This document shows, in pieces, positions 440-36,986 of a DNA stretch of 36,986 bases. The position numbers were made by a program, and so were the translations under genes. A model generated the notes under the pieces. The model was not told the DNA's origin, made no database searches, and saw nothing but the letters and a program-made list of their open reading frames with translations. The DNA lies in IMG/VR virus record IMGVR_UViG_3300027733_000006, positions 1 through 36,986 of that record, one strand, 5' to 3'. This stretch comes from a virus. Positions within the stretch are counted from its first letter, which is position 1; the number at the start of each line of letters is the position of its first letter.

Positions 440-3400
440 ATGGCCGATAGAATCCAACTTCGCAGAGATACAGCCGCAAACTGGACAGCATCGAACCCGG
501 TATTATTTTTGGGAGAAGTTGGTCTTGAGACGGACACGCTTAAAAGTAAGTTCGGCAACGGCAGCACGGCTTGGAACGGCTTAAGCTATACAGCATCCGG
601 CGCAACTGGAGCTGTAGGTGCAACCGGAGCCACAGGTTTGACCGGCGCTACAGGCGTTACAGGTTCTACTGGATTAACCGGCGCTACCGGCGCTGTTGGG
701 GCTACTGGCGCACAGGGGGCTACTGGCGTTGCTGGCGCAACAGGCGCAACAGGAAATAATGGTGCGACTGGTCCTGTTGGTGCAACGGGAGCCACTGGTA
801 CAAGTGGTGCTACGGGATTAACGGGAGCAACTGGATCCACAGGTTTGACCGGTGCTACTGGAGTAGGAGCAACTGGGGCAACTGGGATTGGTGCTACTGG
901 TCCTACAGGAGCCACTGGTTTCGTTGGAGCAACGGGTGCTACTGGGATAACCGGAACCACAGGAGCAACGGGGCCAAGTGGATTAACTGGAGCGACTGGT
1001 GTCACTGGTGCCACTGGCACAGCAGGGTCTACTGGCTCTACTGGCGTAGCGGGAGCAACAGGTGCTACTGGCGCTATTGGAGCTTCTGGCGCTAGCGGGG
1101 CCACCGGCACTCAAGGAAATACAGGTTCTACTGGTGCCATCGGAGCAACTGGTCCAACCGGATCAACTGGCATACAAGGATCAACTGGTGCCACTGGCAT
1201 TCCGGGCTCTACTGGCATTGAAGGTGCCACTGGCATTCAAGGTGCGACTGGAGCGACTGGAGTCATTGGGGCAACTGGAGTTATTGGTTCAACCGGCGTA
1301 GCGGGTTCTACTGGCGCTACTGGGATTGAGGGTTCTACTGGAGCCTCGGGCGCAACGGGCGCAACAGGTGTAGCTGGCGCAACGGGAGTTGCTGGTGCGA
1401 CTGGACTCACAGGTGCAACTGGTACTACTGGCACCACTGGGGCCACGGGCATCACCGGATCTACAGGAATTGGATCCAGTGGAGCCACTGGCGCTACTGG
1501 TCTTAATGGCGCTAGCGGCGCTACGGGAGCCACTGGCCCGTCTGGAGCTACTGGTTCTGGAGCTACTGGAGCTACTGGAGTTGCTGGTGCGACAGGTGCA
1601 CCTGGACAGTCTGCATCGTTTTTTAATTATCAGGCTGACACAACTTCGACCACAATGCCAAATGGCGTTGGAACCATTCCAAATGGTCATGTGTTGTGGA
1701 ATAACGCAACGCAAGTAAGTGCAACGCAGATGGCGTTTTCTCACATTGATGGGAATGGGAACGACATTGATGTATTTTTCCCTCTCTACAAAAATGGAGA
1801 CACTTTTGTTCTTCAGGATCAAAATAATTCCAATAACTATCAGAGCTGGGAAATTAATGGCACGCCAACCATCGGCAATAATGCTTGGATTGTCATTCCA
1901 GTTCAATTGACGGCCTCCGGCGGAACAGGCACAACAAACTTTGCAAATAACCATCAAGTCATTTGGGCCATTGTAACCTCTGGTATTCAGGGCGCTACTG
2001 GTCCTACGGGAGCCACTGGTCCTGTTGGCGCAACTGGAGTTCAGGGTTCCACTGGCGCAACTGGTACTCAGGGAGGCACCGGAGCTTCTGGTGCAACCGG
2101 CTTGCAAGGTTCTACTGGTGTTACAGGAGCCACTGGAGTTGCTGGGGCTACTGGTGTGATTGGCTCCACTGGGGCTACGGGAGTTGCTGGTGGTCAAGGT
2201 TCGACTGGAGCGACAGGTGCGACTGGTGTTATTGGCGCGACTGGAGTTGTCGGTTCTACGGGAGCTACTGGAGTTTTGGGTTCAACCGGCGCAACCGGCG
2301 CAACCGGAGTAGTTGGATCAACTGGTGCAACTGGAGTCGTTGGAAGCACTGGAGTCGTAGGAAGCACTGGGATTAATGGGGCCACAGGGGCCACTGGAGT
2401 TGTTGGATCGACTGGAGCCACTGGCGCAACAGGAATTGGAACCACAGGGGCCACCGGCAGTACTGGAGCAACTGGTGTTGGCACTGCTGGAGCCACAGGA
2501 GCCACAGGGCCAGCTATTGCAACGCCTGTTTCGATTGCAGATGGAGGCACTGGCCAGACAACAAACATTGGAGCCAGAAATGCACTAGGAAGCATTCAAA
2601 ATGCGACTATTCGTCACGGGAGTGCATTAGGGCTCCAAAATATTGGAACAATTTCTGGGGCAACTTGGACAACTAGCTCCACGACGCTTACATTCACTAG
2701 TTCTTCGGTCACGCTTGTGCCCGGAATGAGTATTCTTGCAGTTGGACTTACATCAGCCGTCATTAGAACGGTTGATAGTCCAACACAAGTTACAATGTCG
2801 ATAGCGGCAACTTCTGGAGGAAGTGGAACAATTTCAGCAGTTTACAATTCAACAGTGTCAACGCTTGTTTCTTCATCTATTATTGTAATGGATGGACGCA
2901 CAATGGTTGTTGGTGACATTGTGTTGCTTGCCGCTCAAACTGCAAATGCTCAAAATGGGCCATGGGTGCTTAACTCACTTGTAGGCGGCGTGATGAGTTT
3001 TGTGCGTCCATCTTATTGGACAGGTGTGCTTTTGGGGAATTTCCTGTTTTATGTTCAGCAAGGCACGGCAAATTATGGAGTAACTGCCTCTGTAAGTGGC
3101 GCAATTTCAACTGGTTCTAGCGTTGGTGTTGATGCGTTCTCTGTATACACTGCAGTAACTCGGGCCAGTAATGCAGTTGTCGCTGGAAATATTTTCACAG
3201 GCAAAAACACGTTTCAGGCTGGAGCGGCTGGCTCTGGCGCAGTTCCATTTTCGTTTCAAGCTCCCAATCCAACAATAATGACGACCCCACAGGCGCACAG
3301 CGTCGAGTGGGACAGTGCTTCGATGTACCTCACATCACTGGTGAGCTTGTCTGGAACTTGGACCACAGGAAGTGCAATAGTTACAGTTACAACCGGCAAC

Positions 3401-3589
3401 ACATCTGGACTTGTAATCGGCGCGGCTGTTGCTAGTGGAATTACTGGCACTACACTAACGGTAGCCAGCATTCAGTCATTAACTTCATTCACACTGTCTG
3501 GAACACCCACAAACAATGGAACCGCTCTTGCATTTACACTTGCAAGTCGTGATTCTGTAGTCACCACAAACTCTTTCGGAACCTACTAA
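440..3589 (+). CDS. Collagen-like tail fibre with Mtd-type N-terminal domain
   Basis: A 1049-residue fibre, probably trimeric, expected on the virion tail for host binding. Residues 1-50 ([20 protein letters not shown] and the following [19 protein letters not shown]) match the N-terminal domain pattern of major tropism determinant and related fibre proteins. Residues 54-389 are an almost unbroken collagen-like Gly-X-Y array dominated by GAT and GST triplets. Residues 390-514 form a non-repetitive, probably globular domain. Residues 515-691 are a second collagen-like block. The C-terminal part begins with a fibre motif ([10 protein letters not shown], 697 onward) and continues as a beta-rich domain to residue 1049, ending NSFGTY. 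The start at 440 is preceded by GGAGGGGG about a dozen bases upstream. No reverse transcriptase or template repeat is present, so this is not a diversity-generating system despite the Mtd-like start. Receptor specificity cannot be read from the sequence. Confidence 0.93.
599..1606 (+). repeat. Collagen-like Gly-X-Y repeat block 1
   Basis: Codes residues 54-389 of the fibre. The 9-base unit encoding Gly-Ala-Thr or Gly-Ser-Thr recurs with synonymous changes (ggt/gga/ggc, gct/gca/gcc, act/aca/acg), so protein periodicity is stricter than DNA periodicity. The opposite strand shows long open Pro-Val-Ala-Pro frames, which are a by-product of the repeat and not genes. Confidence 0.95.
1982..2512 (+). 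repeat. Collagen-like Gly-X-Y repeat block 2
   Basis: Codes residues 515-691 of the fibre. Composition is like block 1 with more GVV/GVI triplets. It is separated from block 1 by a non-repetitive domain of about 125 residues. The repeats are near-identical DNA units and are likely to change length by slippage or recombination. Confidence 0.93.
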
Positions 3590-4960: not shown

Positions 4961-5002
4961 TTTTCGCTTGCAGGTATAACCTGCCCGAATAGCTTGTCGG
5001 CA

Positions 5003-6145
5003 ATGACACAAATCCATTGCCTCGCCGTGCCACATACCATCAGCAATGATGACTATGTGGCTTGTGCTTTTACTCAGAAGGTTCGCAAGTTTTTGACGAT
5101 GTTCAAGGACTCGACCAAGTACCGCACGGTCCACTACGGCCACCCAGAGTCAGTCACAGACGCGCATGAACACGTCGATGTCATCGACAACGAAACGCTT
5201 GTTGCCGCGTACGGGGAGTACGACTGGAGAAAGAACCTGTTTAAGCATGGGATCACGGATCTGGCTCATACCGTGTTTAACGAGAGAGCTGCCAAGGAAA
5301 TCAAGGCTAGGAAGAAGAAGGGCGATCTTGTGCTTTGCTTTTGGGGAGGCACTCAAGCAGCGGCAGAATCAGCCAACGAATCAGATCTTATTGTTGTTGA
5401 GCCTGGGATAGGCTCAGGCGGGGCTTTCGCTCAGTTCCGGTGCTACGAGTCGTATCCGCTGAAGGCGGCTTTTGTAGGCACGCAGGGCGTCTCTTACTGC
5501 GACCCAAAGTGGTATTGGCGAGTGGTTCCGAATTACTTCAATCTCAACGATTTTAATCCAGCTCAAGACCGAGAAGAGTTTGCTCTCTACATTGGTAGGA
5601 TCGGCAGAAACAAGGGACTAGATATTGCGATTGATGCCTGCTCTAGAATGGGAGTTAAGCTCAAAGTATGCGGTCAAGGCAGCTCCACTGATGTTGGCTA
5701 TGATGAATGGCCGAGTCATGTGGAGTACTTGGGCTATGCTGACATTGCCACTCGCAAGCAACTAATGGGCACGGCCAAGTTTGGCTTTCTGCTCTCAACA
5801 TATTGGGAGCCGTTTGGTGGAACGGCAGTTGAGATGATGCTGTCCGGGTGCGTGCCGATCTGTTCTGATGCCGGCGCCATGATTGAATACATCGTGGATG
5901 GCGTGAACGGCTTTCGCTGCAACACAATGGGGGACATTCTCAGGGCCATTCGACTTGTCTCAACTATCCGACGCGACCGAATGGTTCGGTTCGCCCAAGA
6001 TAACTTCTTGCTCGATGCCGTGCGGCCCAAGTTTGAGCGTGCCTTTGATGACTTCTCTGATGTCTTTAACGCCGGCGGCTGGTATGAAGACCACAATAGA
6101 GAATTGTCAGGCGTTGGACTAGACTACAAAGCATTGTACCTATGA
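5003..6145 (+). CDS. GT1/GT4-type glycosyltransferase (GT-B fold)
   Basis: Transfers a sugar from an activated donor to an unknown acceptor in the cytoplasm. The 380-residue product has the C-terminal donor-binding domain of the Glycos_transf_1 family: FALYIGRIGRNKGLDIAID near residues 190-210, the Glu-x7-Glu motif in WEPFGGTAVEMMLSGCVP near residue 270, and a following DGVNGFRC segment. The first half would be the acceptor domain. The ATG at 5003 is preferred to an in-frame TTG at 4994; neither has a clear ribosome-binding site. Its stop overlaps the methyltransferase ATG (ATGA, 6142-6145). It lies between the fibres and the gp10-like gene. Likely targets are the phage fibre or capsid proteins or the host surface polysaccharide; sequence alone does not separate these. 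Confidence 0.9.
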   Translation: MTQIHCLAVPHTISNDDYVACAFTQKVRKFLTMFKDSTKYRTVHYGHPESVTDAHEHVDVIDNETLVAAYGEYDWRKNLFKHGITDLAHTVFNERAAKEIKARKKKGDLVLCFWGGTQAAAESANESDLIVVEPGIGSGGAFAQFRCYESYPLKAAFVGTQGVSYCDPKWYWRVVPNYFNLNDFNPAQDREEFALYIGRIGRNKGLDIAIDACSRMGVKLKVCGQGSSTDVGYDEWPSHVEYLGYADIATRKQLMGTAKFGFLLSTYWEPFGGTAVEMMLSGCVPICSDAGAMIEYIVDGVNGFRCNTMGDILRAIRLVSTIRRDRMVRFAQDNFLLDAVRPKFERAFDDFSDVFNAGGWYEDHNRELSGVGLDYKALYL

Positions 6146-21271: not shown

Positions 21272-22053
21272 GTGCAAAGAACATGTTTGAACCACCAAAG
21301 CAGCGTCACAATGAGGAAATCGAGGCCGCTATCTCCAATGCACTCACCATCACCCGATCTAGAGAAGACCGACGCACTTATCTCGGGGCAAGCCGGTGGG
21401 GGCATCATTGTGAACGAGCACTCGGCTACGAGTTCCATGCCACTCCCAGAGACGACATGTCCAAGCCTCAGTTCAGTGCCAACTTGTACCGCGTATTCGA
21501 CATGGGACACGACGGCGAGAGTCGCATGTCCGAGTATCTGCGAATGGCGGGGTTTGAATTGCAGACGGAAAAGCCAGGAGGCGGTCAGATAGGTTTCTCA
21601 GCCTGCGACGGAAAGCTGGGTGGGCACTGCGACGGCGTTGTTCATGCCGGCCCAGGCATTAGCAAGGCGCCGCTTGTCTGGGAGAACAAGGCGCTCAACA
21701 ACAAGAGCTGGAACGACACCAAGGACAAGGGCGTCCAAAAGTCTAAGCCGCTGTACTACGCTCAGATGCAGACGTACATTGCATATCTCGATTTGCAAGG
21801 TTTCCTGTTTACGGCGATGAACCGGGACACTGGGGAGGTATACGTTGAGTTAGGCGAGCCGGACATGAGGTTGGCTCAGGAGGTCAGCGACAAGGCGCTG
21901 CGCATCATCCAGAGCGAGCACCCAGAACAGTTGCCGAGGGCGGCGAGCGTGGAAACAGACTGGCAGTGCCGGTTCTGTGATTTCCAGAAGCAGTGTTGGG
22001 GGCGGAAAGAAACGCCAGTCGAATCACGTCAGTACTTTAACTACAAAAAATGA
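21268..22053 (+). CDS. Cas4/RecB-like PD-(D/E)XK exonuclease
   Basis: A nuclease of the PD-(D/E)XK superfamily, expected to make single strands for the Sak4-like annealing system. In the 261-residue product the fold motifs are in order: RVFDMGHDGESRM (around 70), GGHCDG with the catalytic Asp (near 117-122), WENKAL with Glu-x-Lys (near 138-143) and the helix YYAQMQTYIAYLD (near 160). A C-terminal cysteine set (WQCRFCDFQKQCW), together with a Cys upstream (HHCERAL), resembles the iron-sulfur clusters of Cas4-like enzymes. The GTG start at 21268 is chosen for a very strong GGAGGAGG nearby and the GTGA overlap with the previous stop. Its own stop overlaps the primase-helicase ATG. Confidence 0.88.
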   Translation: MSAKNMFEPPKQRHNEEIEAAISNALTITRSREDRRTYLGASRWGHHCERALGYEFHATPRDDMSKPQFSANLYRVFDMGHDGESRMSEYLRMAGFELQTEKPGGGQIGFSACDGKLGGHCDGVVHAGPGISKAPLVWENKALNNKSWNDTKDKGVQKSKPLYYAQMQTYIAYLDLQGFLFTAMNRDTGEVYVELGEPDMRLAQEVSDKALRIIQSEHPEQLPRAASVETDWQCRFCDFQKQCWGRKETPVESRQYFNYKK

Positions 22054-24557
22054 TGACAGCAAAAAATGAAAGCCTGGCTCACTTCGATGAGAGTCAGGTT
22101 AGGGAACACTTGTCTTTTATCTTCGGGGCTGTGGACTTTCAGCCCGGAGCATATGTGTGTCTCCGAGGTATTGGCGAGAAAGGGACAGCGCAAGAGGGAA
22201 CTTTCCGTGAGGAGTTCTTCTTTGAGCCAGCGACCGAACAGAACTGGATGAATTCAGCCGTAGAGCACTGCCAACGCTGGGGACAGCATGCCGTGGCTTC
22301 TTTCATTGTGCCCTGCGTATTGAAAGCACCAAAGGCAACGTCTTTAAATGTCAGCCAGTTTACCACAGTTGTTGCGGACTTTGATTCTGGTAACACAGAT
22401 GAGCGGATCGATTGGGTGGCGGAACACATTGGAATGCCGGATTTGGTGGTCGAGTCTGGTGGAACCACCGAGGCCGGTACACCCAAGCGGCATGCCTGGT
22501 GGAAGATTGAGCCAACCGCTGATATTGAGGGCGTCATCAATCTGCGGCACGCGATTGCCGAGAAGAGTGGCGGGGACTTGATGCTGGGGCGGGGCGTGAA
22601 AAGCAATCCGTTTGGGCGTTCTCACCAGCCAGTAAGAATTGCCGGAACCATTCACGGCAAGGGCGGAACGGCGAAGCCGTGCCGCTTTGAGTGGGTCAGG
22701 ACGGAGTGGGAGGCAAATGGAGAGATCACGGGAGATTGTTTGCATACTGATTTTGCGGACAAAGTTAAGGAGGTTCAACCAGCTCCGTGGGCAACGAGGA
22801 CAGTGATGTCCCTTGGGGACGGAAATAACGTGATTCGGGGACTCTTTGGGGAGGATAGCACGAACTCAGGGGAGGACTTTGAGCCGGTGGAGCTGAATCG
22901 GGATGTGCATGCCGGCGGGGACGTAGTCACTCGGTTTGGCGAGTTCAACCGGGTGGCCGGCCATTACATTCACTGTGTGCGGCGCGGAGATATGGATAAG
23001 GCAGAAGCTTTCGAGGCGTTGTCTGGGTGGGTGATCTCGCACATGAAGCCTGCTTGGCCTGAGGCGCGAGTGAGGACAGAGTGGGAGGCCCTGTGCCGTC
23101 AGGACGTGTCCTCGAAGGGGGCGTTTACAGAGGAAAAATCGGGGACACACTCGGGGACGGGCGCACTGCCGGTAGGTGAGAATGGTCTGCTAGCGTGGTC
23201 TGCCCACCGCTGGATCACCGACCCAGTGCCGGTCCATGAGGAACTGGTCGAGGGACTGGTGCTCAAAGGGGAACCGCATCTGTTTGTGGGTGAGGGTGGG
23301 TCTGGAAAGACGTTCTTGGTCGCTGATCTGGCGCTGAAGGTTGCAGCTTGGAACGAGGCCAAGGATTACTTCTGGTGTGGCCAGAAGGTCCGTGCCGGTG
23401 GGACCGCTGTGCTGATTCTGTGCGAGGACTCGCAGACCGAGATGCACATCCGGATCAAGCAGCTTGATCAAGGTGGATTGATATCGCAGGCCGGCGACCG
23501 GCTCATTGTACTGCCCATGACTAACATCGGGGGAGCGTTTCCGCTTACCCAGCGGAACTCGAAGACCGGTGAATCGGTGACAAGTGACCGGTGGCGCTCG
23601 ATGCTGGATCTGATGAAGGCACTCCCAGAGCCGCCAGTATTGGTAGCGATTGATACGCTCAACAGTGTATCGCACGGGGACGAGAACTCGAATGTGGTGA
23701 TAGCCGAGATGATGCGGGAGGCCCACAGGGTGTGCGGGGAGATGGGTGCCGCTTTGCTGATTAACCACCATATCCGAAAGTCAAACGAGCCTTTAAGATC
23801 TCTGGAAGAATTACGCAGTGCGATCCGTGGAGCGTCAGCGATTCCCTCATATTTCCGCATCAACTTCGGGATGTTTCACGCTAGCGATTACGAGCGGCGC
23901 ATGAAGGCTATGAACATGACTCCAAAACGGGGCGCAATGTGGAAGTTCGGAGTCGTAAAAGCGAACATTCATGGGCTCTTGCAGGGAGAGCGTACGCTGC
24001 TTCGCAACGGAATTGGACTCTTGGAGGACATTACCTCGAACGATTCGTATGCCGCTGTAAATGTGTCTGAACGTGTGGCGTGGATGGTTTACGCGATCCA
24101 ACAGGCGGCCTCGGCGCTGCATCCGTACGCCGTAGGTGGCAAGAATGCCGCCAACGGTCTGTATAAGCGCAGGAATGAGCTGCCACAGATACTGCGTGGG
24201 GTAGGCTGGCGGGAGTTTGGTAACTTGGTTGAGGAGGCATTGGTGAAGGGACTGCTAGTGCCGTGTGCCGTTCGAGGCAGCAAGTCGAAGACGTATCTGG
24301 ATGTACCGGGTGGGGTGTTATCGCAGGACGAAGCAGGGGTAACGATAGCCTCTGGGTCGTACAATTCAGCCCCAGAATGGGAGGATTTTTACTTCGATGC
24401 GGACTCCGGCGAGGTAGTTTTAGCCGCTAAAAGCAACGCTTGGAACGCGCAGTTTCAACGTACTGTGCCGCCTATGGGTGGGCCAAAGAGAAAAAGTGAC
24501 GATTCTGACGATTGGGCCAAGAAAAGGACACGAGGACACGCCTCTCCAACAGAGTAA
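22050..24557 (+). CDS. Primase-helicase (AEP/RepB-like primase fused to RepA/DnaB-type ATPase)
   Basis: The replication protein, 835 residues. The N-terminal part (about 1-260) has features of an archaeo-eukaryotic-type primase as in RepB-like phage and plasmid primases: TTVVADFDSGN with paired acidic residues (near 105-115), PKRHAWWKIEPTAD near 150, and QPVRIAGTIHGKGG near 195-208. The C-terminal half is an AAA_25/RepA-like ATPase: Walker A GEGGSGKT near 414-421, VLILCEDSQTEMHI near 450, Walker B VLVAIDTLNS near 532-538, then LLINHHIRKSN and AIRGASAIPS sensor regions. It probably unwinds the origin and makes primers while the host replicase copies DNA. Repeats directly downstream (24524-24801) may be its origin. 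It starts with an ATGA overlap with the nuclease gene. Confidence 0.9.
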   Translation: MMTAKNESLAHFDESQVREHLSFIFGAVDFQPGAYVCLRGIGEKGTAQEGTFREEFFFEPATEQNWMNSAVEHCQRWGQHAVASFIVPCVLKAPKATSLNVSQFTTVVADFDSGNTDERIDWVAEHIGMPDLVVESGGTTEAGTPKRHAWWKIEPTADIEGVINLRHAIAEKSGGDLMLGRGVKSNPFGRSHQPVRIAGTIHGKGGTAKPCRFEWVRTEWEANGEITGDCLHTDFADKVKEVQPAPWATRTVMSLGDGNNVIRGLFGEDSTNSGEDFEPVELNRDVHAGGDVVTRFGEFNRVAGHYIHCVRRGDMDKAEAFEALSGWVISHMKPAWPEARVRTEWEALCRQDVSSKGAFTEEKSGTHSGTGALPVGENGLLAWSAHRWITDPVPVHEELVEGLVLKGEPHLFVGEGGSGKTFLVADLALKVAAWNEAKDYFWCGQKVRAGGTAVLILCEDSQTEMHIRIKQLDQGGLISQAGDRLIVLPMTNIGGAFPLTQRNSKTGESVTSDRWRSMLDLMKALPEPPVLVAIDTLNSVSHGDENSNVVIAEMMREAHRVCGEMGAALLINHHIRKSNEPLRSLEELRSAIRGASAIPSYFRINFGMFHASDYERRMKAMNMTPKRGAMWKFGVVKANIHGLLQGERTLLRNGIGLLEDITSNDSYAAVNVSERVAWMVYAIQQAASALHPYAVGGKNAANGLYKRRNELPQILRGVGWREFGNLVEEALVKGLLVPCAVRGSKSKTYLDVPGGVLSQDEAGVTIASGSYNSAPEWEDFYFDADSGEVVLAAKSNAWNAQFQRTVPPMGGPKRKSDDSDDWAKKRTRGHASPTE

Positions 24558-24704
24558 TGTAAGTGCGCGTGTCCTCAGGGGACATGGAAAAGGACACGCA
24601 AAAGTGCGTATAAAATACGCGTGTCCTCAAATGCGTTTTTTGGGGGGTCTTGAGGACGGGGCTAAGTGGTTGAAAATAGAAGTTTTACGTCATTTGAGGA
24701 CACG
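24524..24704. repeat. Iteron-like repeats, candidate replication origin
   Basis: The 9-base sequence CGTGTCCTC, or its complement GAGGACACG, occurs at 24532-24540, 24568-24576, 24620-24628 and 24696-24704. Partial copies lie at 24525, 24590 and 24650. Two forward copies are extended to CGCGTGTCCTCA. They straddle the 3' end of the primase-helicase gene and the AT-rich stretch after it. Repeats of this kind beside a replication gene are typical of origins. Confidence 0.6.
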
Positions 24705-24749
24705 GGGACTATATATAGGGAATAGGGATAAGTCCCCTAGTTCCCGTAT

Positions 24750-24801
24750 CCTCATATATTCGGATACCCTTAACCGCTAACGCTAGGGTATCCGTATGAG
24801 G
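24750..24801. other. Large two-part inverted repeat
   Basis: An inner stem pairs CGGATACCCT (24761-24770) with AGGGTATCCG (24785-24794), 10 perfect pairs. An outer stem pairs CCTCATA (24750-24756) with TATGAGG (24795-24801), 7 perfect pairs, separated on the left by a 4-base bulge. The loop is 14 bases. A T run is missing, so it is less likely to be a plain terminator. A primase or origin-binding site is possible. Confidence 0.6.
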
Positions 24802-24886
24802 ACCGTGAACGCTTCGCTTCCTTGCTATATTTTGCGACAGTGCTCAAAGTTTACAAAAAACAGCGTATACACAGAAATTAAGTACA

Positions 24887-25477
24887 ATGAAAAAACAGAT
24901 CACATTGAGCGAGGAGTGTAGCGACGGCACCGGTGAGTTGCTCGTGCGGCTGAGTGTTCGGGGAGAACCCAAGAGCCAGCCGCGTCCGCGCTTCGTAGGA
25001 GGCCGTGTAATCTCGAATACGAGCCCTGCGGTGTCGTCGTGGCAGGCAGCGGTGCGGAGGGCTGCTAGCGAGGCATTGTGTGCGATTGAGCGGGGGTTGC
25101 CGGACAAGGCGACAGCCTTGAGGGTCGATGTGACGTTCTTCTTCCCGACGAAAGTCTCCGCCCGCTGGGGGAAGCCGCACACTCAGAAGCCTGACCGGGA
25201 CAACTGCGACAAGCTGATCTTGGACGAGTGCACCAAGGTTGGACTCTTCGGTGGGGACGACTGCCGGGTATCCGCCGGCATGATCAGGAAGTACTGGTGC
25301 CGTCCCGGTGGTGAGGGAGCCGTCGTAGAGGTCTCGATAGACGCTTCAGGAGCCCCGTGGGAGGGTCTGGACTCGACTTCGAGCATGACCACAGCCGACG
25401 AGGCTCCAGAGTGGGTTAAAAGAAATCCGCCAAGGTCAGGATCGCTTGCTTGTTTGAATGGCCTTAATCGGCGGTAG
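24887..25477 (+). CDS. RusA-like Holliday junction resolvase
   Basis: Resolves branched DNA before packaging. The 196-residue protein has the RusA-type pattern: GEPKSQPRPRF near 26-36, PTKVSARWGKPHTQKPDRDN with the acidic residues near 88-107, then CDKLILDECTKVGLFGGDDC matching the family core (K-P-D-x-D-N followed by L-x-D-x-L and a D-D pair), then VSAGMIRKYW. RusA is about 120 residues; the extra C-terminal 50 residues (DASGAPWEGLDSTSSM and onward) look disordered. The ATG at 24887 follows an A-rich leader with no Shine-Dalgarno sequence. It is the last rightward gene before the leftward block; its end overlaps the convergent gene by 14 bases. Confidence 0.87.
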   Translation: MKKQITLSEECSDGTGELLVRLSVRGEPKSQPRPRFVGGRVISNTSPAVSSWQAAVRRAASEALCAIERGLPDKATALRVDVTFFFPTKVSARWGKPHTQKPDRDNCDKLILDECTKVGLFGGDDCRVSAGMIRKYWCRPGGEGAVVEVSIDASGAPWEGLDSTSSMTTADEAPEWVKRNPPRSGSLACLNGLNRR

Positions 25478-26377: not shown

Positions 26378-26407
26378 TTGGGTGTCTTTGGGTGTCTTTG
26401 GGTGTCT
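26378..26407. repeat. Three tandem copies of a 10-bp unit
   Basis: TTGGGTGTCT occurs three times in perfect tandem. The 10-bp period puts the copies on nearly the same face of the helix, as for protein-binding sites. Confidence 0.8.
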
Positions 26408-26574
26408 CATAGGTGCCGTTTCCAGAGCTTCAGGGTGGCCTTGCGCTAGTGTCTGAAGCTTTGAACGGTAGGAAGTGGCTGAATGCGGGGTGAGGGATCA
26501 TTAGGCGGCTTTCTGCGCGCTTGTCAGGGGCGGCCTTTGGGGACGCTTTGGGGACAGAATGCGCTAGCATTAGG

Positions 26575-28642: not shown

Positions 28643-28830
28643 GGTGATCACATGCGTTCTTCTCTGTGTGATCACCTGATTAGCAATCAGGTAATCACTC
28701 GCACTATAAGGGTAACCACTACCTATAGTGGTACTTAGTACAGTGACCACAACCTGTAGTGAACCACAACCTGTAGTGGTATGGCATGAGGTATGGTACA
28801 ACCTGTAGTGGTAGGCGGGGTGATCACCCC
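28643..28830. promoter_or_regulatory. Palindrome-rich control or packaging region
   Basis: Two families of dyad sites alternate. GGTGATCAC occurs at 28643-28651, as GTGATCACC at 28668-28676, and in the perfect palindrome GGGGTGATCACCCC at 28817-28830. CCACTACCTATAGTGG (28716-28731) is a perfect interrupted palindrome; variants CCACAACCTGTAGTG(G) lie at 28747-28761, 28764-28779 and, shortened, 28797-28811. Hairpin ACCTGATT-agc-AATCAGGT is at 28674-28692. No gene is seen. Operators or a pac site are likely. Confidence 0.6.
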
Positions 28831-29445: not shown

Positions 29446-29669
29446 ACGACGTATACCACCCAGCGCACTACACGGAGCACCCTACCGGGGTAGAGTGCGT
29501 TGAGATAGCGGAAGCCTTCGGCTTCAACCTGGGGAACGCGATCAAGTACATTTGGCGTGCGGGGCTGAAGACGCAGGACCCGATCAAGGACCTTGAGAAG
29601 GCGGCATGGTACATCCGGCGAGAGATCAACCGGCTTTACAAGAACCGTCCTACCCCATCAGATGAGTGA
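29442..29669 (+). CDS. DUF3310 family protein
   Basis: A 75-residue protein whose whole length matches DUF3310: YHPAHYTEHPTGVECVEIAE, then FGFNLGNAIKYIWRAGLK, then IKDLEKAAWYIRREINRLY. The domain also occurs in T7 gp1.7, a nucleotide kinase-like protein, but the function of small stand-alone members is unclear. It lies between the small and large terminase genes and overlaps the large terminase start by 8 bases (ATGAGTGA). Confidence 0.88.
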   Translation: MNDVYHPAHYTEHPTGVECVEIAEAFGFNLGNAIKYIWRAGLKTQDPIKDLEKAAWYIRREINRLYKNRPTPSDE

Positions 29670-31110
29670 CCTACTGGACGGCTTGGACCAGCGGCTGGAG
29701 CTAACGCTCCTCTTGGAAGAGAGCCTGCGGCGCAAGAAGGAGCGCAAGATCGGCATGTACTTCCCGGATGAGGGTCCGCTACGGCGTGAGCTGTACCCTA
29801 AGCACCTAGCGTACTTTAAAGCGGGACGTACTTACCGTGAGCGGCTGATGATGGCGGCAAACCGTATTGGGAAGACCGAGAGCATCGGCGGGTACGAGAT
29901 AGTATTGCACATGACCGGCAAGTACCCCATTTGGTGGGAGGGCCGGCGGTTTGAGCAGCCTATCAATGCGTGGGCGGCAGGGGATACGGGGAAGACGACC
30001 CGCGACATTCTCCAGATGAAGCTACTGGGGCCGCCCGGGGAGTTCGGCACTGGCCTGATCCCAAAGGCTGACTTGCTGCGCACCACCGCGAAAGCGGGGG
30101 TGGCAGAAGCCATTGAGACCTTGAGTGTCCGACACGTCAGCGGTGGCGAATCAAGACTTACCTTTAAGAGCTACGACCAGCGGCGGGAAGCGTTCCAGGG
30201 CTCGGAGCAAGACGTGATCTGGCTGGATGAAGAGCCGCCGCTTGATGTTTACACGGAGTGTCTTTTGCGAACAATGACCAATAGCGGCATGACGATGCTG
30301 ACGTTTACGCCACTGATGGGGTTGAGCGAGACGGTCATGTCGTTTATGCCGAATGGCGAGATCCAAGAGCAGGCCTCCGGCAGCAAGTACATCGGGATGG
30401 CGACGTGGGACGATGTGCCGCACCTCTCTAAGCAACAGAAAGACGAGTTGTGGGCTTCGATCCCGCCGTTCCAGCGCGATGCGCGCTCCAAAGGCGTCCC
30501 CCAGCTTGGCTCTGGGGCGATCTATCCGGTGCCGGAGAGCGAGATTATCTGTGAAGAGTTCAACATTCCCGAGCACTGGCGGCGGTGTTACGGGATGGAC
30601 GTGGGGTGGAACCGCACGGCGGTAGTGTGGGGAGCGACAAACCCGGACTCCAACGTGACGTACCTGTACTCTGAGTACTACCGAGGCCAGGCGGAGCCGA
30701 TCATTCACTCGGAAGCGATCAAAGCCCGTGGCGAGATGCCGGGGGTAATTGATCCAGCCAGTCGCGGTCGAGCACAGACAGACGGCCAGCAGCTTCTTGG
30801 GATCTATCGGCGGCATGGGTTGGATATAACTCCGGCCCAGAACTCAGTGGAAAGCGGTCTGTACACAGTGTGGACTGCAATGTCTGCCAGCAAGCTTCGA
30901 GTTTTCCCAAGTCTAAAGAATTGGCTGAACGAGTTTCGGCTTTATCGGCGGGATGAAAAGGGTCGCGTTGTGAAGGATAATGATCATTTGATGGACGCGA
31001 CACGGTATTTAATGGTAAGTGGTTTAGGTAGAGCAGCGATTCCCGGCAAGTATACCGGCAAGAGAAACAGCTCACTAATCATGCCGGTAATCAACTTTTT
31101 TAAGAGATGA
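29662..31110 (+). CDS. Terminase large subunit (P22 gp2-like)
   Basis: The ATP-driven motor and nuclease of headful packaging. The 482-residue product (P22 gp2 has about 499) carries an N-terminal ATPase with a Walker A-type AANRIGKT (65-72), Walker B VIWLDEEP near 195, and a coupling motif in MTMLTFTPLMG. The nuclease domain has acidic residues in YGMDVGWNRT near 312, GVIDPASRG near 370, and NDHLMDATRYLM near 460. ATG 29662 is chosen because it overlaps the preceding stop; upstream in-frame sequence lies inside the DUF3310 gene and has no terminase similarity. It overlaps the portal gene by ATGA. Confidence 0.95.
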   Translation: MSDLLDGLDQRLELTLLLEESLRRKKERKIGMYFPDEGPLRRELYPKHLAYFKAGRTYRERLMMAANRIGKTESIGGYEIVLHMTGKYPIWWEGRRFEQPINAWAAGDTGKTTRDILQMKLLGPPGEFGTGLIPKADLLRTTAKAGVAEAIETLSVRHVSGGESRLTFKSYDQRREAFQGSEQDVIWLDEEPPLDVYTECLLRTMTNSGMTMLTFTPLMGLSETVMSFMPNGEIQEQASGSKYIGMATWDDVPHLSKQQKDELWASIPPFQRDARSKGVPQLGSGAIYPVPESEIICEEFNIPEHWRRCYGMDVGWNRTAVVWGATNPDSNVTYLYSEYYRGQAEPIIHSEAIKARGEMPGVIDPASRGRAQTDGQQLLGIYRRHGLDITPAQNSVESGLYTVWTAMSASKLRVFPSLKNWLNEFRLYRRDEKGRVVKDNDHLMDATRYLMVSGLGRAAIPGKYTGKRNSSLIMPVINFFKR

Positions 31111-33122
31111 ACGAAGACAAATTGGCTGAGATTCACCAGAAAGCACGGGCTGAGTTCGATCAAGTCCAGTCTGCTCTGTACCAGGAGCGGATGAATTGTC
31201 TGGGGGATCGGCGTTTCTGTTCACTGACCGGCGCACAGTGGGAGGGACCACTTGGTCAACAGTTCGAGAACAAGCCGCGCTTTGAAGTCAACAAGGTCCA
31301 CATGGCGGTGCAGCGGATCATTAACGAGTACCGAAACAACCGGATTGGAGTGCTGTTTGTCTCTAAAGAGGGCGAGGAATACGACAAGCTGGCGGATACC
31401 TGTGCCGGTTTGTACCGGGCGGATGAGCAGACGCCTACGGCGGATGAAGCCTACGACAATGCCTTTGAAGAAGCGGTGATGGGCGGCTTTGGAGCGTGGC
31501 GGCTTCGCACCGAGTACGAGAACGACGAGGATCCCGAGGAAGACAAGCAGCGCGTGTGCATCGAGCCGATCTTTGACGCGGACTCTAGCGTGTACTTTGA
31601 TCTGGGAGCCAAGCGCCAGGACAAGGCAGACGCGAAGCGTTGCTGGGTTCTTACCAGCATGACGCGGGAAGCTTACAAGGCAGAGTTTGATGATGACCCA
31701 TCGACGTGGCCTAAGACTATCACGCGCAGTCAGTTCGATTGGTATACGCCCTCAATCGTCTACGTTGCCGAGTACTACGTCGTCGAGGAAGTCTCCGAGC
31801 AGGTCCGTATCTACAAGAACATTGACGGCAAGGAAGAGTCTTTGAAGCCGGACGAGCTTTATCAGGAAGAACAGATGCTTGCGACCGGCTGGAAAGAGGT
31901 TCGGCGCAAGAAGATCAAGGCTCGCAAGGTCCACAAGTACATCATGTCCGGGGCCAAGATCCTTGAGGACTGTGGGTACATTGCTGGGAAGAACATCCCG
32001 ATCATTCCAGTGTACGGCAAGCGTTGGTTCGTGGACAACGTGGAGCGGTGCATGGGCCATGTGCGGCTGGCTAAAGACGCGCAGCGGCTCAAGAACATGC
32101 AGCTCAGTAAACTGGGCGAGATTGCAGCTCTCTCCGCGATGGAGAAGCCGATTCTGCTTCCTGAACAGATCGCCGGCCATCAGCTCATGTGGGCCGAGGA
32201 CAACCTAAAGAACTACCCGTACCTGCTGATCAATCCGATTACGGATGCCAACGGCAACCCGGCGGCTGGCGGACCGGTGGCGTACACCAAACCTCCCTCG
32301 ATCCCGCCGTCAATGGCTGCACTGCTCCAGATCACGGAAGCCGACATGCAGGAAATTCTTGGTTCCCCTCAGCAGGGCGACAAGATGGTGAGTCATCTAA
32401 GTGGAAAGACCGTTGAGCTTATCCAGCAACGGCTTGATATGCAGACGTTTATCTACATGAGCAACATGGCTAAGGCTATCAAGCGGTGTGGGGAAGTGTG
32501 GCTTTCGATTGCTCGCGACATCTTTGTGGAGCAGGGCCGGAAGATGAAGTCTGTCACTCAAAACGGCAAGATGGAACCGGTTGAACTGATGAAGCCTGTC
32601 GTCAACGACGAGGGCGAGATTGAGTACGAGAACGACATGTCCTGTGCTGATTACGACGTGCAGGTGCTTGTCGGGCCAAGCGGCCAGACCAAGCGGCAGG
32701 CTACGGTTCGGGCGCTTACAGACATGATGACAATGACCCAGGATCCTGAGATGACCCAAGTCTTGTCCTCGATGGCTATGCTGAACATGGAAGGCGAAGG
32801 CATTGAAGATGTTCGCGACTACTTCCGCAAGAAGCTGCTTCGTATGGGGGTACTTAAGCCTACCGACACAGAAGCTCAAGAACTTGCCCAGGAGGCTCAG
32901 AACGCCAAGCCAGACCCCCAGGCACAGTACTTGCAGGCGGCAAGCGAGCAGGCCATCGCACAGGCCTCCAAGGCGCAGGCTGACAGCATTCTTTCTGTGG
33001 CTAAGGCCGAGGAAACTCGGGCTAAGACCACAGAAACGCTCTCCAAGGTCAGTATGGCTGACCAAGAGCGGATCTTTGCGCTAGCAGATCGGCTGACAGC
33101 GCCAGCCCCGCAGATGCAATAG
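31107..33122 (+). CDS. Portal protein (P22 gp1-like)
   Basis: Forms the dodecameric ring at the special vertex through which DNA passes. The 671-residue protein (P22 gp1 has about 725) shows the P22-type portal pattern: GAQWEGPLGQQFENKPRFEV and VQRIINEYRNNRIG near 45-85, EEAVMGGFGAWRLRTEY near 120, ADSSVYFDLGAKRQDKADAK near 155-175, IPIIPVYGKRWFVDNVE near 295-310 and KLGEIAALSAMEKP near 333. The C-terminal 60 residues are an Ala/Gln helix rich enough to be a barrel-like extension (QAASEQAIAQASKAQADSIL). It follows the large terminase with an ATGA overlap. Confidence 0.93.
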   Translation: MNEDKLAEIHQKARAEFDQVQSALYQERMNCLGDRRFCSLTGAQWEGPLGQQFENKPRFEVNKVHMAVQRIINEYRNNRIGVLFVSKEGEEYDKLADTCAGLYRADEQTPTADEAYDNAFEEAVMGGFGAWRLRTEYENDEDPEEDKQRVCIEPIFDADSSVYFDLGAKRQDKADAKRCWVLTSMTREAYKAEFDDDPSTWPKTITRSQFDWYTPSIVYVAEYYVVEEVSEQVRIYKNIDGKEESLKPDELYQEEQMLATGWKEVRRKKIKARKVHKYIMSGAKILEDCGYIAGKNIPIIPVYGKRWFVDNVERCMGHVRLAKDAQRLKNMQLSKLGEIAALSAMEKPILLPEQIAGHQLMWAEDNLKNYPYLLINPITDANGNPAAGGPVAYTKPPSIPPSMAALLQITEADMQEILGSPQQGDKMVSHLSGKTVELIQQRLDMQTFIYMSNMAKAIKRCGEVWLSIARDIFVEQGRKMKSVTQNGKMEPVELMKPVVNDEGEIEYENDMSCADYDVQVLVGPSGQTKRQATVRALTDMMTMTQDPEMTQVLSSMAMLNMEGEGIEDVRDYFRKKLLRMGVLKPTDTEAQELAQEAQNAKPDPQAQYLQAASEQAIAQASKAQADSILSVAKAEETRAKTTETLSKVSMADQERIFALADRLTAPAPQMQ

Positions 33123-33149
33123 TTCTTGCATTCTGTGTCAGTTTTACCC

Positions 33150-34004
33150 ATGAATACAAACCAAGAGGCAGTAGATACCGCCACAACATCGGAACCGGAA
33201 GAAGTCCTACTAAAGCAATCAGAGGCCGCGCAAGCGGAGCCTGAGACGCAGACGGAAGACGCTGGAGAAGAGCTTGTGGTGACTATCGCAGGGGAATCGC
33301 CGCCCCCGGAAGAGGAAGAGAAGCAGGCACCCGAATGGGTGCGTAACCTGAGAAAAAGCTACCGAGAGCTACAACGCGAGAAGCGTGAGCTTGAGGAAAA
33401 GCTCAAGACGGTATTACCGGCAACAGAGACAAATCCTGTTGATCCCGGACGCAAACCGACACTTGAGGCGTGTCATTACGATTTGGATAAGTTCGAGAAC
33501 GAACTTGCTGGTTGGTTTGAGCGCAGGCGGCAGTCTGAAGAGGCTGTGGCCAAGCAAAGATCCAAGCAACAAGCCGAACAGGAATCTTGGCAGAAGAAGT
33601 TGGAAGGCTACAACCAGTCTAAGACTGGCTTGAAAGTGTCTGATTTCCAAGACGCCGAGGAAACAGTTCTCGAAAGTCTAAGCGTAACGCAACAAGGCAT
33701 TATTCTTCAGGGCGCCCAGAACCCCGCTGTAATGGTTTATGCCCTCGGCAAAAACCTAAAGAAAGCCAAGGAACTGGCAGAGATCACGGACCCAGTGAAA
33801 TTCGCGTTCGCTGTTGCGAAACTCGAAACTCAACTGTCTGTAACATCTCGAAAAGCACTCCCTCCTCCTGAAAAACGAATTACAAGCAACGGTAGTCTTG
33901 ATACTTCCAGCGTTCAGTTGGATCGGTTGCGTGACGAGGCGGCACGCTCCGGGGACTTCACCAAAGTGATCGCCTATAAAAAGCAGTTAAAAAACCAATC
34001 CTAA
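33150..34004 (+). CDS. Scaffolding protein (P22 gp8-like position)
   Basis: Guides coat assembly and leaves before DNA entry. The 284-residue protein (P22 gp8 has about 303) is acidic at the N-terminus (EEVLLKQSEAAQAEPETQTE) and helical with a coiled coil (RKSYRELQREKRELEEKLK near 67-85, and ERRRQSEEAVAKQRSKQQAE near 125-145), with a basic C-terminal segment (DFTKVIAYKKQLKNQS) that could bind coat as the helix-loop-helix of gp8 does. ATG 33150 is chosen over an in-frame TTG at 33126. It lies between portal and coat as in P22. Sequence identity to gp8 is not evident; the call rests on position, size and design. Confidence 0.85.
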   Translation: MNTNQEAVDTATTSEPEEVLLKQSEAAQAEPETQTEDAGEELVVTIAGESPPPEEEEKQAPEWVRNLRKSYRELQREKRELEEKLKTVLPATETNPVDPGRKPTLEACHYDLDKFENELAGWFERRRQSEEAVAKQRSKQQAEQESWQKKLEGYNQSKTGLKVSDFQDAEETVLESLSVTQQGIILQGAQNPAVMVYALGKNLKKAKELAEITDPVKFAFAVAKLETQLSVTSRKALPPPEKRITSNGSLDTSSVQLDRLRDEAARSGDFTKVIAYKKQLKNQS

Positions 34005-34007
34005 GTT

Positions 34008-35276
34008 ATGGCCAATTCATTCAGCAAAGAAGAACGTGTAGCGTTTGAGAACCTCCTCGAAGGGTTTCAAGACGCTCTAGTCCTGTCCCGCAACGTCTCG
34101 ATCTACAACACGGATCAGACGATGATGGAACGCACCAACAACACCATCTGGAGGCCGCAGCCTTATGTCTCCCGGTCCTATTCCGGTACGGATATGACCT
34201 CGAACTTCACGGACTACACCCAGCTTTCCGTCCCTGCGACGATTGGTTTCAACCAGTCTGTGCCTTGGATTATGACGGCTACGGAACTCCGTGACGCCCT
34301 TCAGGAATCCCGTCTCGGTGACGCTGCCAAGCAGAAGCTGGCCTCCGACATCAACGTCGCTGTGCTGAACGTCGCTTCGGCTCAGGGAACGCTCGTTGTG
34401 AAGCGCGTGTCTGCCGCTAGCGGCTTTGATGACGTCGCCCAGTGCGAGGCTATCTTCAACGAGCAGGGCGTTAACGACTTTGATCGTTACCTCGCGCTTT
34501 CCACTCGTGACTACAACGGCATGGCAAGCAACCTGGCTGGTCGTCAGACGCTTCAGGGCAAAACGCTGACAGCTTATGACCGCGCCTTCATCGGCCAGGT
34601 CGCAAGCTTCGGCACCTACAAGCTCGACTACGCCAACCGCATCGCGGCTGCTGCTGGTTCCGGCATCACGATTGATACTCGTGACTCGGCTGTGAACTAC
34701 CAGGTGCCCAAGGCTGTTACGTCCTCACCGACGACGGCAGAGCGTCTCAACGTGGACAACCGCTTCCAGACGGTGACCGTGTCGAGCACGACAGGCGTGG
34801 CTGCTGGCGACGCGTTCACGATCGCGGCTGTAAACGCCGTGCATCACATCACCAAGGGCGACACTGGTCAGTTGAAGACGTTCCGCGTCATCAGCGTGAC
34901 CGACAGCACCCACATGGTGATCAGCCCCGGTATCGTTTCCAATCAGGTTCCCTCCGCCGCTTCGGCTGAGTACCAGAACTGCGTTGTGAACACCAAGGCC
35001 TCCAACAGCGCCATCGTGTTCTTGAACACGGCAGCGGCTCCGATCAACTGCTTCTGGCAGAAAGACGCGATCGAAATCCTGCCTGGTCGCTATGCGGTGC
35101 CTTCGGACGCCGGTGCAAACGTGATGCGTGCCTCCACTGATCAGGGCATCGAACTGGTCATGCAGAAACAGTACGACATCAACACGATGAAGACCCGGTA
35201 TCGTTTGGATACCATTTTCGGAGTTGTTAACAAACAGCCCGAGATGAGCGGTATCATCCTGTTCGGTCAGGCTTAG
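34008..35276 (+). CDS. Major coat protein (P22 gp5-like)
   Basis: HK97-fold shell protein, 422 residues (P22 coat has 430). Matches to the P22 family are visible along the chain: NNTIWRPQPYVSRSYSGTDM near 45-65, IMTATELRDALQESR (an E-loop/N-arm region), ASDINVAVLNVASAQGTLVV near 115-135, RLNVDNRFQTVTVSSTTGVA (very close to the P22 VNVDNRFATVTLSATTG) near 245-263, GIVSNQVPSAASAEYQNC and INCFWQKDAIEI near 345. It has an I-domain-like insert region around 225-345 as in P22. The gene has no Shine-Dalgarno sequence (CAATCCTAAGTTATG), odd for the most abundant virion protein. A strong hairpin follows the stop. Confidence 0.95.
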   Translation: MANSFSKEERVAFENLLEGFQDALVLSRNVSIYNTDQTMMERTNNTIWRPQPYVSRSYSGTDMTSNFTDYTQLSVPATIGFNQSVPWIMTATELRDALQESRLGDAAKQKLASDINVAVLNVASAQGTLVVKRVSAASGFDDVAQCEAIFNEQGVNDFDRYLALSTRDYNGMASNLAGRQTLQGKTLTAYDRAFIGQVASFGTYKLDYANRIAAAAGSGITIDTRDSAVNYQVPKAVTSSPTTAERLNVDNRFQTVTVSSTTGVAAGDAFTIAAVNAVHHITKGDTGQLKTFRVISVTDSTHMVISPGIVSNQVPSAASAEYQNCVVNTKASNSAIVFLNTAAAPINCFWQKDAIEILPGRYAVPSDAGANVMRASTDQGIELVMQKQYDINTMKTRYRLDTIFGVVNKQPEMSGIILFGQA

Positions 35277-36804: not shown

Positions 36805-36986
36805 ATGGGACTCGCATTTGAACCTAACTACACCAGAGGTGTAACAGTAACTCCGAATGGAACTTCACAGACTGTGACGCTCGGGTTTACTTCCGAGTCT
36901 TTGGTGTTTTCAAACTTTGGGACAACGATTGTGTACGTCGCTGTGGGTAATGTTGCTAACGGCAACAGTGTTGTGGCTTCTCCTTC
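36805..36986 (+). CDS. Small beta-rich virion protein, 5' part (continues at 1-251)
   Basis: The first part of the 101-residue gene that is cut by the window edge. Residues 1-23 (MGLAFEPNYTRGVTVTPNGT and SQT) are unique to this end; bases 36860-36986 repeat 1-127. It starts 3 bases after the FGTY gene stop. The GGAA of the upstream TTCGGAACCTAC lies 10 bases before this ATG and may act as a weak ribosome-binding site. Confidence 0.8.
   Translation, partial: MGLAFEPNYTRGVTVTPNGTSQTVTLGFTSESLVFSNFGTTIVYVAVGNVANGNSVVASP
36860..36986. repeat. Right copy of 127-bp terminal direct repeat
   Basis: Identical to 1-127; see the left copy. One copy should be removed when the genome is circularised. 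Confidence 0.95.

Follow-up and report, generated by a model that had tools for sequence, protein, structure and literature searches.

The element at positions 24524-24850 of an uncultured phage genome is most likely the site at which the copying of the phage DNA starts. We analysed the whole 36,986-base virus record, hereafter the window, in which the element sits between the gene of a primase-helicase (22050-24557, plus strand) and that of a RusA-like Holliday junction resolvase (24887-25477, plus strand; PF05866, E 1.1e-9). With a probability of roughly three in four, the sequence evidence and the analogy with known systems point jointly to a replication origin that would combine iteron binding, AT melting, helicase loading and priming at hairpins. 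Few origins have been identified in phages that are uncultured.

Repeats, AT-rich segment and hairpins between the primase-helicase and RusA genes

Four exact copies of the repeat CGTGTCCTC (24532, minus; 24568, plus; 24620, plus; 24696, minus) and three copies with one mismatch (24524, minus; 24590, minus; 24745, plus) were found, and all of these sites, on both strands, fall inside 24524-24753. Further partial sites lie within both arms of the larger of the two hairpins described below. The four exact and several partial copies on both strands reported in the sequence-only reading of this DNA are confirmed. The 8-mer core AGGACACG occurs six times in less than 300 bp, from position 24525, and forms the densest 8-mer cluster in the window outside coding repeats, whereas no 8-mer exceeded three copies in 60 Markov-1 random sequences.

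From left to right, the array comprises two abutting copies on the minus strand, AAGGACACG and GAGGACACG (24524-24540), where the primase-helicase gene ends, then GCGTGTCCTCA (24567-24577, plus), the partial repeat GGGGACA (24578-24584, minus), AAGGACACGC (24590-24599, minus), a second copy of GCGTGTCCTCA (24619-24629, plus) and a partial GAGGAC (24652-24657, minus) seen in the alignment of relatives. The abutting pair, AAGGACACGC and both copies of GCGTGTCCTCA are kept in relatives. They are followed by a second motif, TAAGTGGTTG (24663-24672, plus), of which TAAGTNGTTG recurs in distant relatives, singly or as an inverted pair, and by the tandem core GAGGACAC-GGGGAC (24696-24709, minus), which matches the GAGGANNCGAGGAN core found 5' of the hairpins in distant relatives. 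As in iteron origins, several copies of a short repeat are thus placed beside or inside the gene of a candidate initiator; the repeats nevertheless differ from classic plasmid iterons in being short (8-10 bp), irregularly spaced and present in both orientations. The start of the array within the last codons of the primase-helicase gene, as originally described, holds for the window, but the overlap is inessential, because in several relatives the stop codon of the gene precedes the first repeats or falls among them. An inverted pair of 25 nt (24609-24633 and 24691-24715, 84% complementary) also lies inside the array and is the only close-armed inverted pair listed by a repeat search of the whole window.

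Adjacent to the tandem core is the AT-rich segment TATATATAGGGAATAGGGATA (24710-24730), a candidate melting site. The AT-rich stretch noticed earlier is therefore present, but it is short, with a GC content over 120 bp of 0.44-0.48 in its vicinity compared to about 0.53 for the whole window. Two hairpins occupy the next positions. HP1 (24718-24745) pairs GGGAA+TAGGG with CCCTA+TTCCC, giving ten pairs and a one-base bulge, and 99.2% of its alignment cells are paired. HP2 (24749-24802) is a two-part hairpin of 17 pairs with arms at 24749-24756/24795-24802 and 24762-24770/24785-24793 and the conserved loop CGCTWACGCT. It is the 17-pair hairpin of the sequence-only reading, which had described it as the only one and had passed over HP1 immediately 5' of it. 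When the 121 nt from 24710 to 24830 were folded as DNA, the folding energy was far below that of shuffled sequences, with z values of -4.6 and -5.3 on the two strands. The conserved GTGCTCAAAG (24840-24849, plus), located 3' of HP2, is invariant in an eight-sequence alignment and has one base changed in L031.

Conservation of the repeats and covariation of the hairpins

A search of IMG/VR with the primase-helicase yielded close relatives, contigs with 83-98% protein identity. In the alignment of their intergenic regions the repeats are nearly invariant, while the spacers vary. The hairpins were compared in two ways. A hand alignment of HP2 in 14 close sequences gave 233 Watson-Crick pairs out of 234, without any G-T, the single exception being a would-be wobble on the opposite strand. 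Five versions of the inner stem occur among these 14 sequences around a constant CGCTWACGCT loop; the stem is shortened in L009 and L029 by the loss of bases from both arms together, and it is almost wholly replaced in L028. A MAFFT alignment of HP1 and HP2 (30 pairs, 99% of cells paired) contains seven doubly changed pairs, compared to a mean of 1.1 after shuffling, and none of 500 shuffles reached the observed number. Six of the compensated pairs belong to HP2 and one to HP1 (TA to AT in L029/L030), and sliding the pair partners abolishes the signal. The outer stem of HP2 has some odd cells, most of them due to the misplacement of part of L028 by MAFFT. These patterns indicate that both hairpins are under selection and are maintained via compensatory changes.

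Covariation by itself does not tell RNA from DNA, and the hairpins could instead form a structured leader RNA, with the repeats as operators for a repressor or activator of the RusA operon. We consider this regulatory explanation unlikely. The element does lie directly before RusA in all groups, and promoter-like AT-rich boxes stand just 5' of the structured part in some relatives; however, no sigma-70-like promoter was found in 24400-25000, HP2 has no T-run, a search of the element against Rfam gave no family match, and the repeats are scattered across about 180-500 bp in both orientations, an arrangement that argues against operators. The lack of G-T among the hand-aligned pairs, with its lone exception on the other strand, mildly favours a DNA structure over an RNA structure for HP2, although it is not decisive. 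An origin and a promoter region may also be combined in the element.

The association of the repeats with the primase-helicase was also approached from the DNA side. A first pattern scan with the tandem core TTTGAGGACACGRGGACTATA, in which the protein was not used, gave 11 contigs. Every one of these encodes a relative of the primase-helicase and is also among the contigs of the protein searches; two, L016/L041 and L019/L039, come from a distant group in which the primase-helicase is only about 41-42% identical. Seven of the eight contigs from two further pattern scans were loci already known from the earlier searches, and the eighth is a fragment with RusA and without the primase-helicase.

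A profile scan of IMG/VR yielded 147 related loci, 80 of which were kept for analysis. Among the loci examined, 35 contained a recognisable RusA motif, corresponding to 27 distinct rows once same-contig duplicates and false hits of the regular expression (L027 and L112, left out of the counts) had been dropped. A GAGGA-N array lies directly 5' of RusA in 25 of the 27, which are related to one another and are not 25 independent observations. The array has the highest GAGGA/TCCTC count of its locus in 21 of them, with no other 500-bp window equal to it, and the weaker arrays of the other four (L033, L034, L096 and L122) are matched by some other windows of the locus. Two loci, L063 and L064, possess both the primase-helicase and RusA and lack a GAGGA array 5' of RusA; any origin that they have would be placed elsewhere or would use another motif. 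The sequence-only reading had named a lack of conservation of the repeats in relatives as part of what would refute an origin, and relatives clearly keep them.

In the distant-relative examples, as in the window, repeats of either orientation are followed, usually after a TAAGTNGTTG-like motif, by a tandem GAGGANNCGAGGAN core, and this core by AT-rich bases and a hairpin region; the stem-loop stands about 1.1-3.7 kb downstream of the primase-helicase gene. The hairpin regions differ in sequence, and compensatory changes occur within groups of distant relatives too. After GAGGA, the group of the window and the L033/L040/L066-like phages have C at nearly every site, and other phage groups have mostly A or T (GAGGAA/GAGGAT), as expected if one co-evolving protein reads the repeats. 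A second repeat family, of the types CCGACACTAAGTC, CCGACACAAAGTC and CCCGACGATTTGTGG, flanks the element in distant relatives (L033, 12101-12500; L034, 11825-12300; L040, 11306-11400).

Linkage of the element to the replication cassette

The relatives examined share the gene order Sak4, helicase, Cas4-like exonuclease, primase-helicase, element and RusA, with the element directly 5' of RusA. Four distant genomes (G002-G005) keep the element and have no detectable homologue of the terminase and portal of the window. Since the synteny of the replication genes is kept while the head genes differ, the comparison indicates that the element belongs to the replication cassette and travels with it, not with the head and terminase genes. 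The element marks a cassette that is exchanged among head modules unrelated to one another. The genome of the window is itself a mosaic of a P22-like head module and a cassette that accompanies other head modules in relatives; its P22-like terminase, portal, scaffold and coat genes occupy 29593-35276.

Repeats and dyads can likewise be combined in packaging sites, and the terminase lies about 5 kb from the array in the window, so that a cos or pac site for the small subunit of the terminase had to be weighed. Such a site is most improbable here: the element is retained in G002-G005, where the terminase and portal of the window are not detected, and sequence searches identify both of these proteins as P22-like, the pac site of P22 being within its small terminase gene. 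The window ends in an identical direct repeat of 127 bp (1-127 and 36860-36986), and end repeats of 127 bp in G004 and G005 and of 119 bp in G001 were observed in relatives. These identical ends are probably assembler overlaps, which would imply circular or circularly permuted genomes, and circular assemblies are compatible with headful packaging as well as with circular DNA.

One more candidate function was weighed, namely a centromere-like partition site or a recombination hotspot linked to Sak4 and RusA instead of an initiation site. Centromere-like sites can consist of short inverted repeats, the substrates of RusA are junctions and cruciforms, and recombination genes abound in the module next to the element. 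We regard this function as very unlikely, as no ParA/ParB-like gene was found among the window proteins searched, the loop and the tandem core are conserved beyond the needs of a simple cruciform, and the linkage to the primase-helicase is as strong as that to RusA.

The conservation of the repeats and hairpins, the covariation and the cassette linkage give strong comparative support to the replication origin that had been proposed from the letters alone, but GC skew does not add to this support. The detrended minimum is located about 3.4 kb upstream of the element in the window and 5.6 kb upstream in G001, and in four distant relatives the distance is about 2 kb or less. The third-codon skew suggests that the signal mostly follows the coding strand, and GC skew, which speaks neither for nor against the site, was set aside as evidence.

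Other features of the window include a 1049-aa tail fibre (440-3589) with long collagen-like repeats of 9-nt period, adjoined by the gene of a glycosyltransferase-like protein (4994-6145; phrog_3408, E 1e-95), and short tandem repeats at 26378-26407 (TTGGGTGTCT, 3 copies), 26535-26555 (CTTTGGGGACG, 1.9 copies) and 28742-28778 (AGTGACCACAACCTGT, 2.2 copies), the first two of which fall inside a region (26.1-26.8 kb) with few listed open reading frames.

Proposed initiation and comparison with known systems

The primase-helicase has 835 aa, with archaeo-eukaryotic-primase (AEP)-like motifs in its N-terminal half, a RepA-type hexameric helicase and a conserved C-terminal domain. The helicase half matches AAA_25 (E 1e-26) and the RSF1010 RepA structure 1g8y (E 1.1e-4 as a single sequence, 1.3e-7 by profile). 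The motifs D110xD112, SGG..KRH148, D176 and R196..K204 vary little or not at all across 59 sequences; the N-terminal half matched no primase family in HMM searches and no PDB entry, and the same kind of search found neither a Toprim domain nor a C-terminal winged helix. The C-terminal region is conserved and, by eye, winged-helix-like in appearance, and we found no residues in it that track the repeat type. The sole structure model, built from ten sequences, is of low confidence (pLDDT 46). From these matches and motifs, the protein appears to pair a helicase of the RSF1010 RepA type with primase motifs of the AEP type.

By analogy with RSF1010 and pRN1, we propose that the repeats serve for recognition, the AT-rich bases for melting and the hairpins as signals for priming. 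The GAGGACACG repeats would act as iterons for an initiator, which is probably the primase-helicase through its C-terminal domain, the alternative being a small phage protein; this binding would melt the AT-rich segment that adjoins the tandem core and load the RepA-type helicase ring. Once unwound, the single strands would fold into HP1 and HP2, and the AEP-type primase domain would recognise these hairpins and lay the first primers next to them.

Isolate-phage records gave no DNA match to the window, and therefore no cultured system for direct testing was found; distant matches, to the helicase only, occur in Rhizobium and Wolbachia phages. A search of genome contigs found no prophage hosts, and the plasmid relatives amount to three weak matches to the helicase. 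Natural variants in sequence and structure across many phages open two questions to direct testing, namely by what means a fused primase-helicase locates its start site and whether hairpins act as signals for primer laying, and the GAGGAC, GAGGAA and GAGGAT repeat types are ready specificity pairs for binding tests.

The iterons of the RSF1010 oriV are three and a half tandem copies of a 20-bp unit. Like this IncQ origin, the element brings together repeats, a candidate melting segment and putative hairpin sites for priming, next to a RepA-type helicase (a profile match) and a putative AEP-type primase (by motif). It differs in that primase and helicase are one protein, no gene for RepC was identified, the repeats have 8-10 bp, both orientations and irregular spacing instead of being tandem 20-mers, and two hairpins stand in tandem instead of one ssi site per strand. 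In RSF1010, RepC acts on the iterons, RepA unwinds and RepB' primes beside the ssi hairpins (PMC4434180, PMC4234260), each strand having one hairpin priming site with GTG 3' of the stem (PMC4434180). A GTG is present 3' of HP2 in the window, is replaced by GAG in L004, L006 and L007, and is absent in L028.

The origin of pRN1 is an essential stem-loop downstream of a primase-helicase gene, and a similar stem-loop exists in the Bordetella phages BPP-1/BIP-1 (PMC4234260). The element shares with pRN1 a large covarying stem-loop 3' of a fused primase-helicase gene, with AEP-like motifs in the case of the window, whereas pRN1 and BIP-1 have an SF3 helicase and a stem-loop without iterons, and the protein of the window, which matches AAA_25 and RepA, is accompanied by an iteron-like array. 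The alpha protein of phage P4 is a multifunctional Toprim primase-helicase with a short-repeat origin (PMC4234260); the likeness is in the single protein and the short repeats, and the difference is in the AEP-like motifs, the RepA-type helicase and the conserved hairpin pair. AEPs fused to RepA-family helicases are described in bacterial mobile elements as the InversePrim, All3500 and PrimQH families, a likeness at the level of domain combination (PMC5862659).

Since the form of the repeats, the division of functions among proteins and the type of helicase are not the same, we do not claim membership in the RSF1010-type or pRN1-type origins; the likeness that we argue for is in the way of working of the RSF1010 oriV and the pRN1 stem-loop. 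The best reading is a variant form of a known kind of origin, found here in a large group of uncultured phages and possibly described earlier outside the open-access literature. More tentatively, one fused protein with an AEP-like primase and a RepA-type helicase may recognise both lineage-specific GAGGA-N iterons and tandem DNA hairpins that diverge in sequence and are conserved in structure; this would be an origin class undescribed in the open-access literature, widespread in an uncultured lineage (147 IMG/VR loci), in which RSF1010-type and pRN1-type initiation are merged in one protein and one locus.
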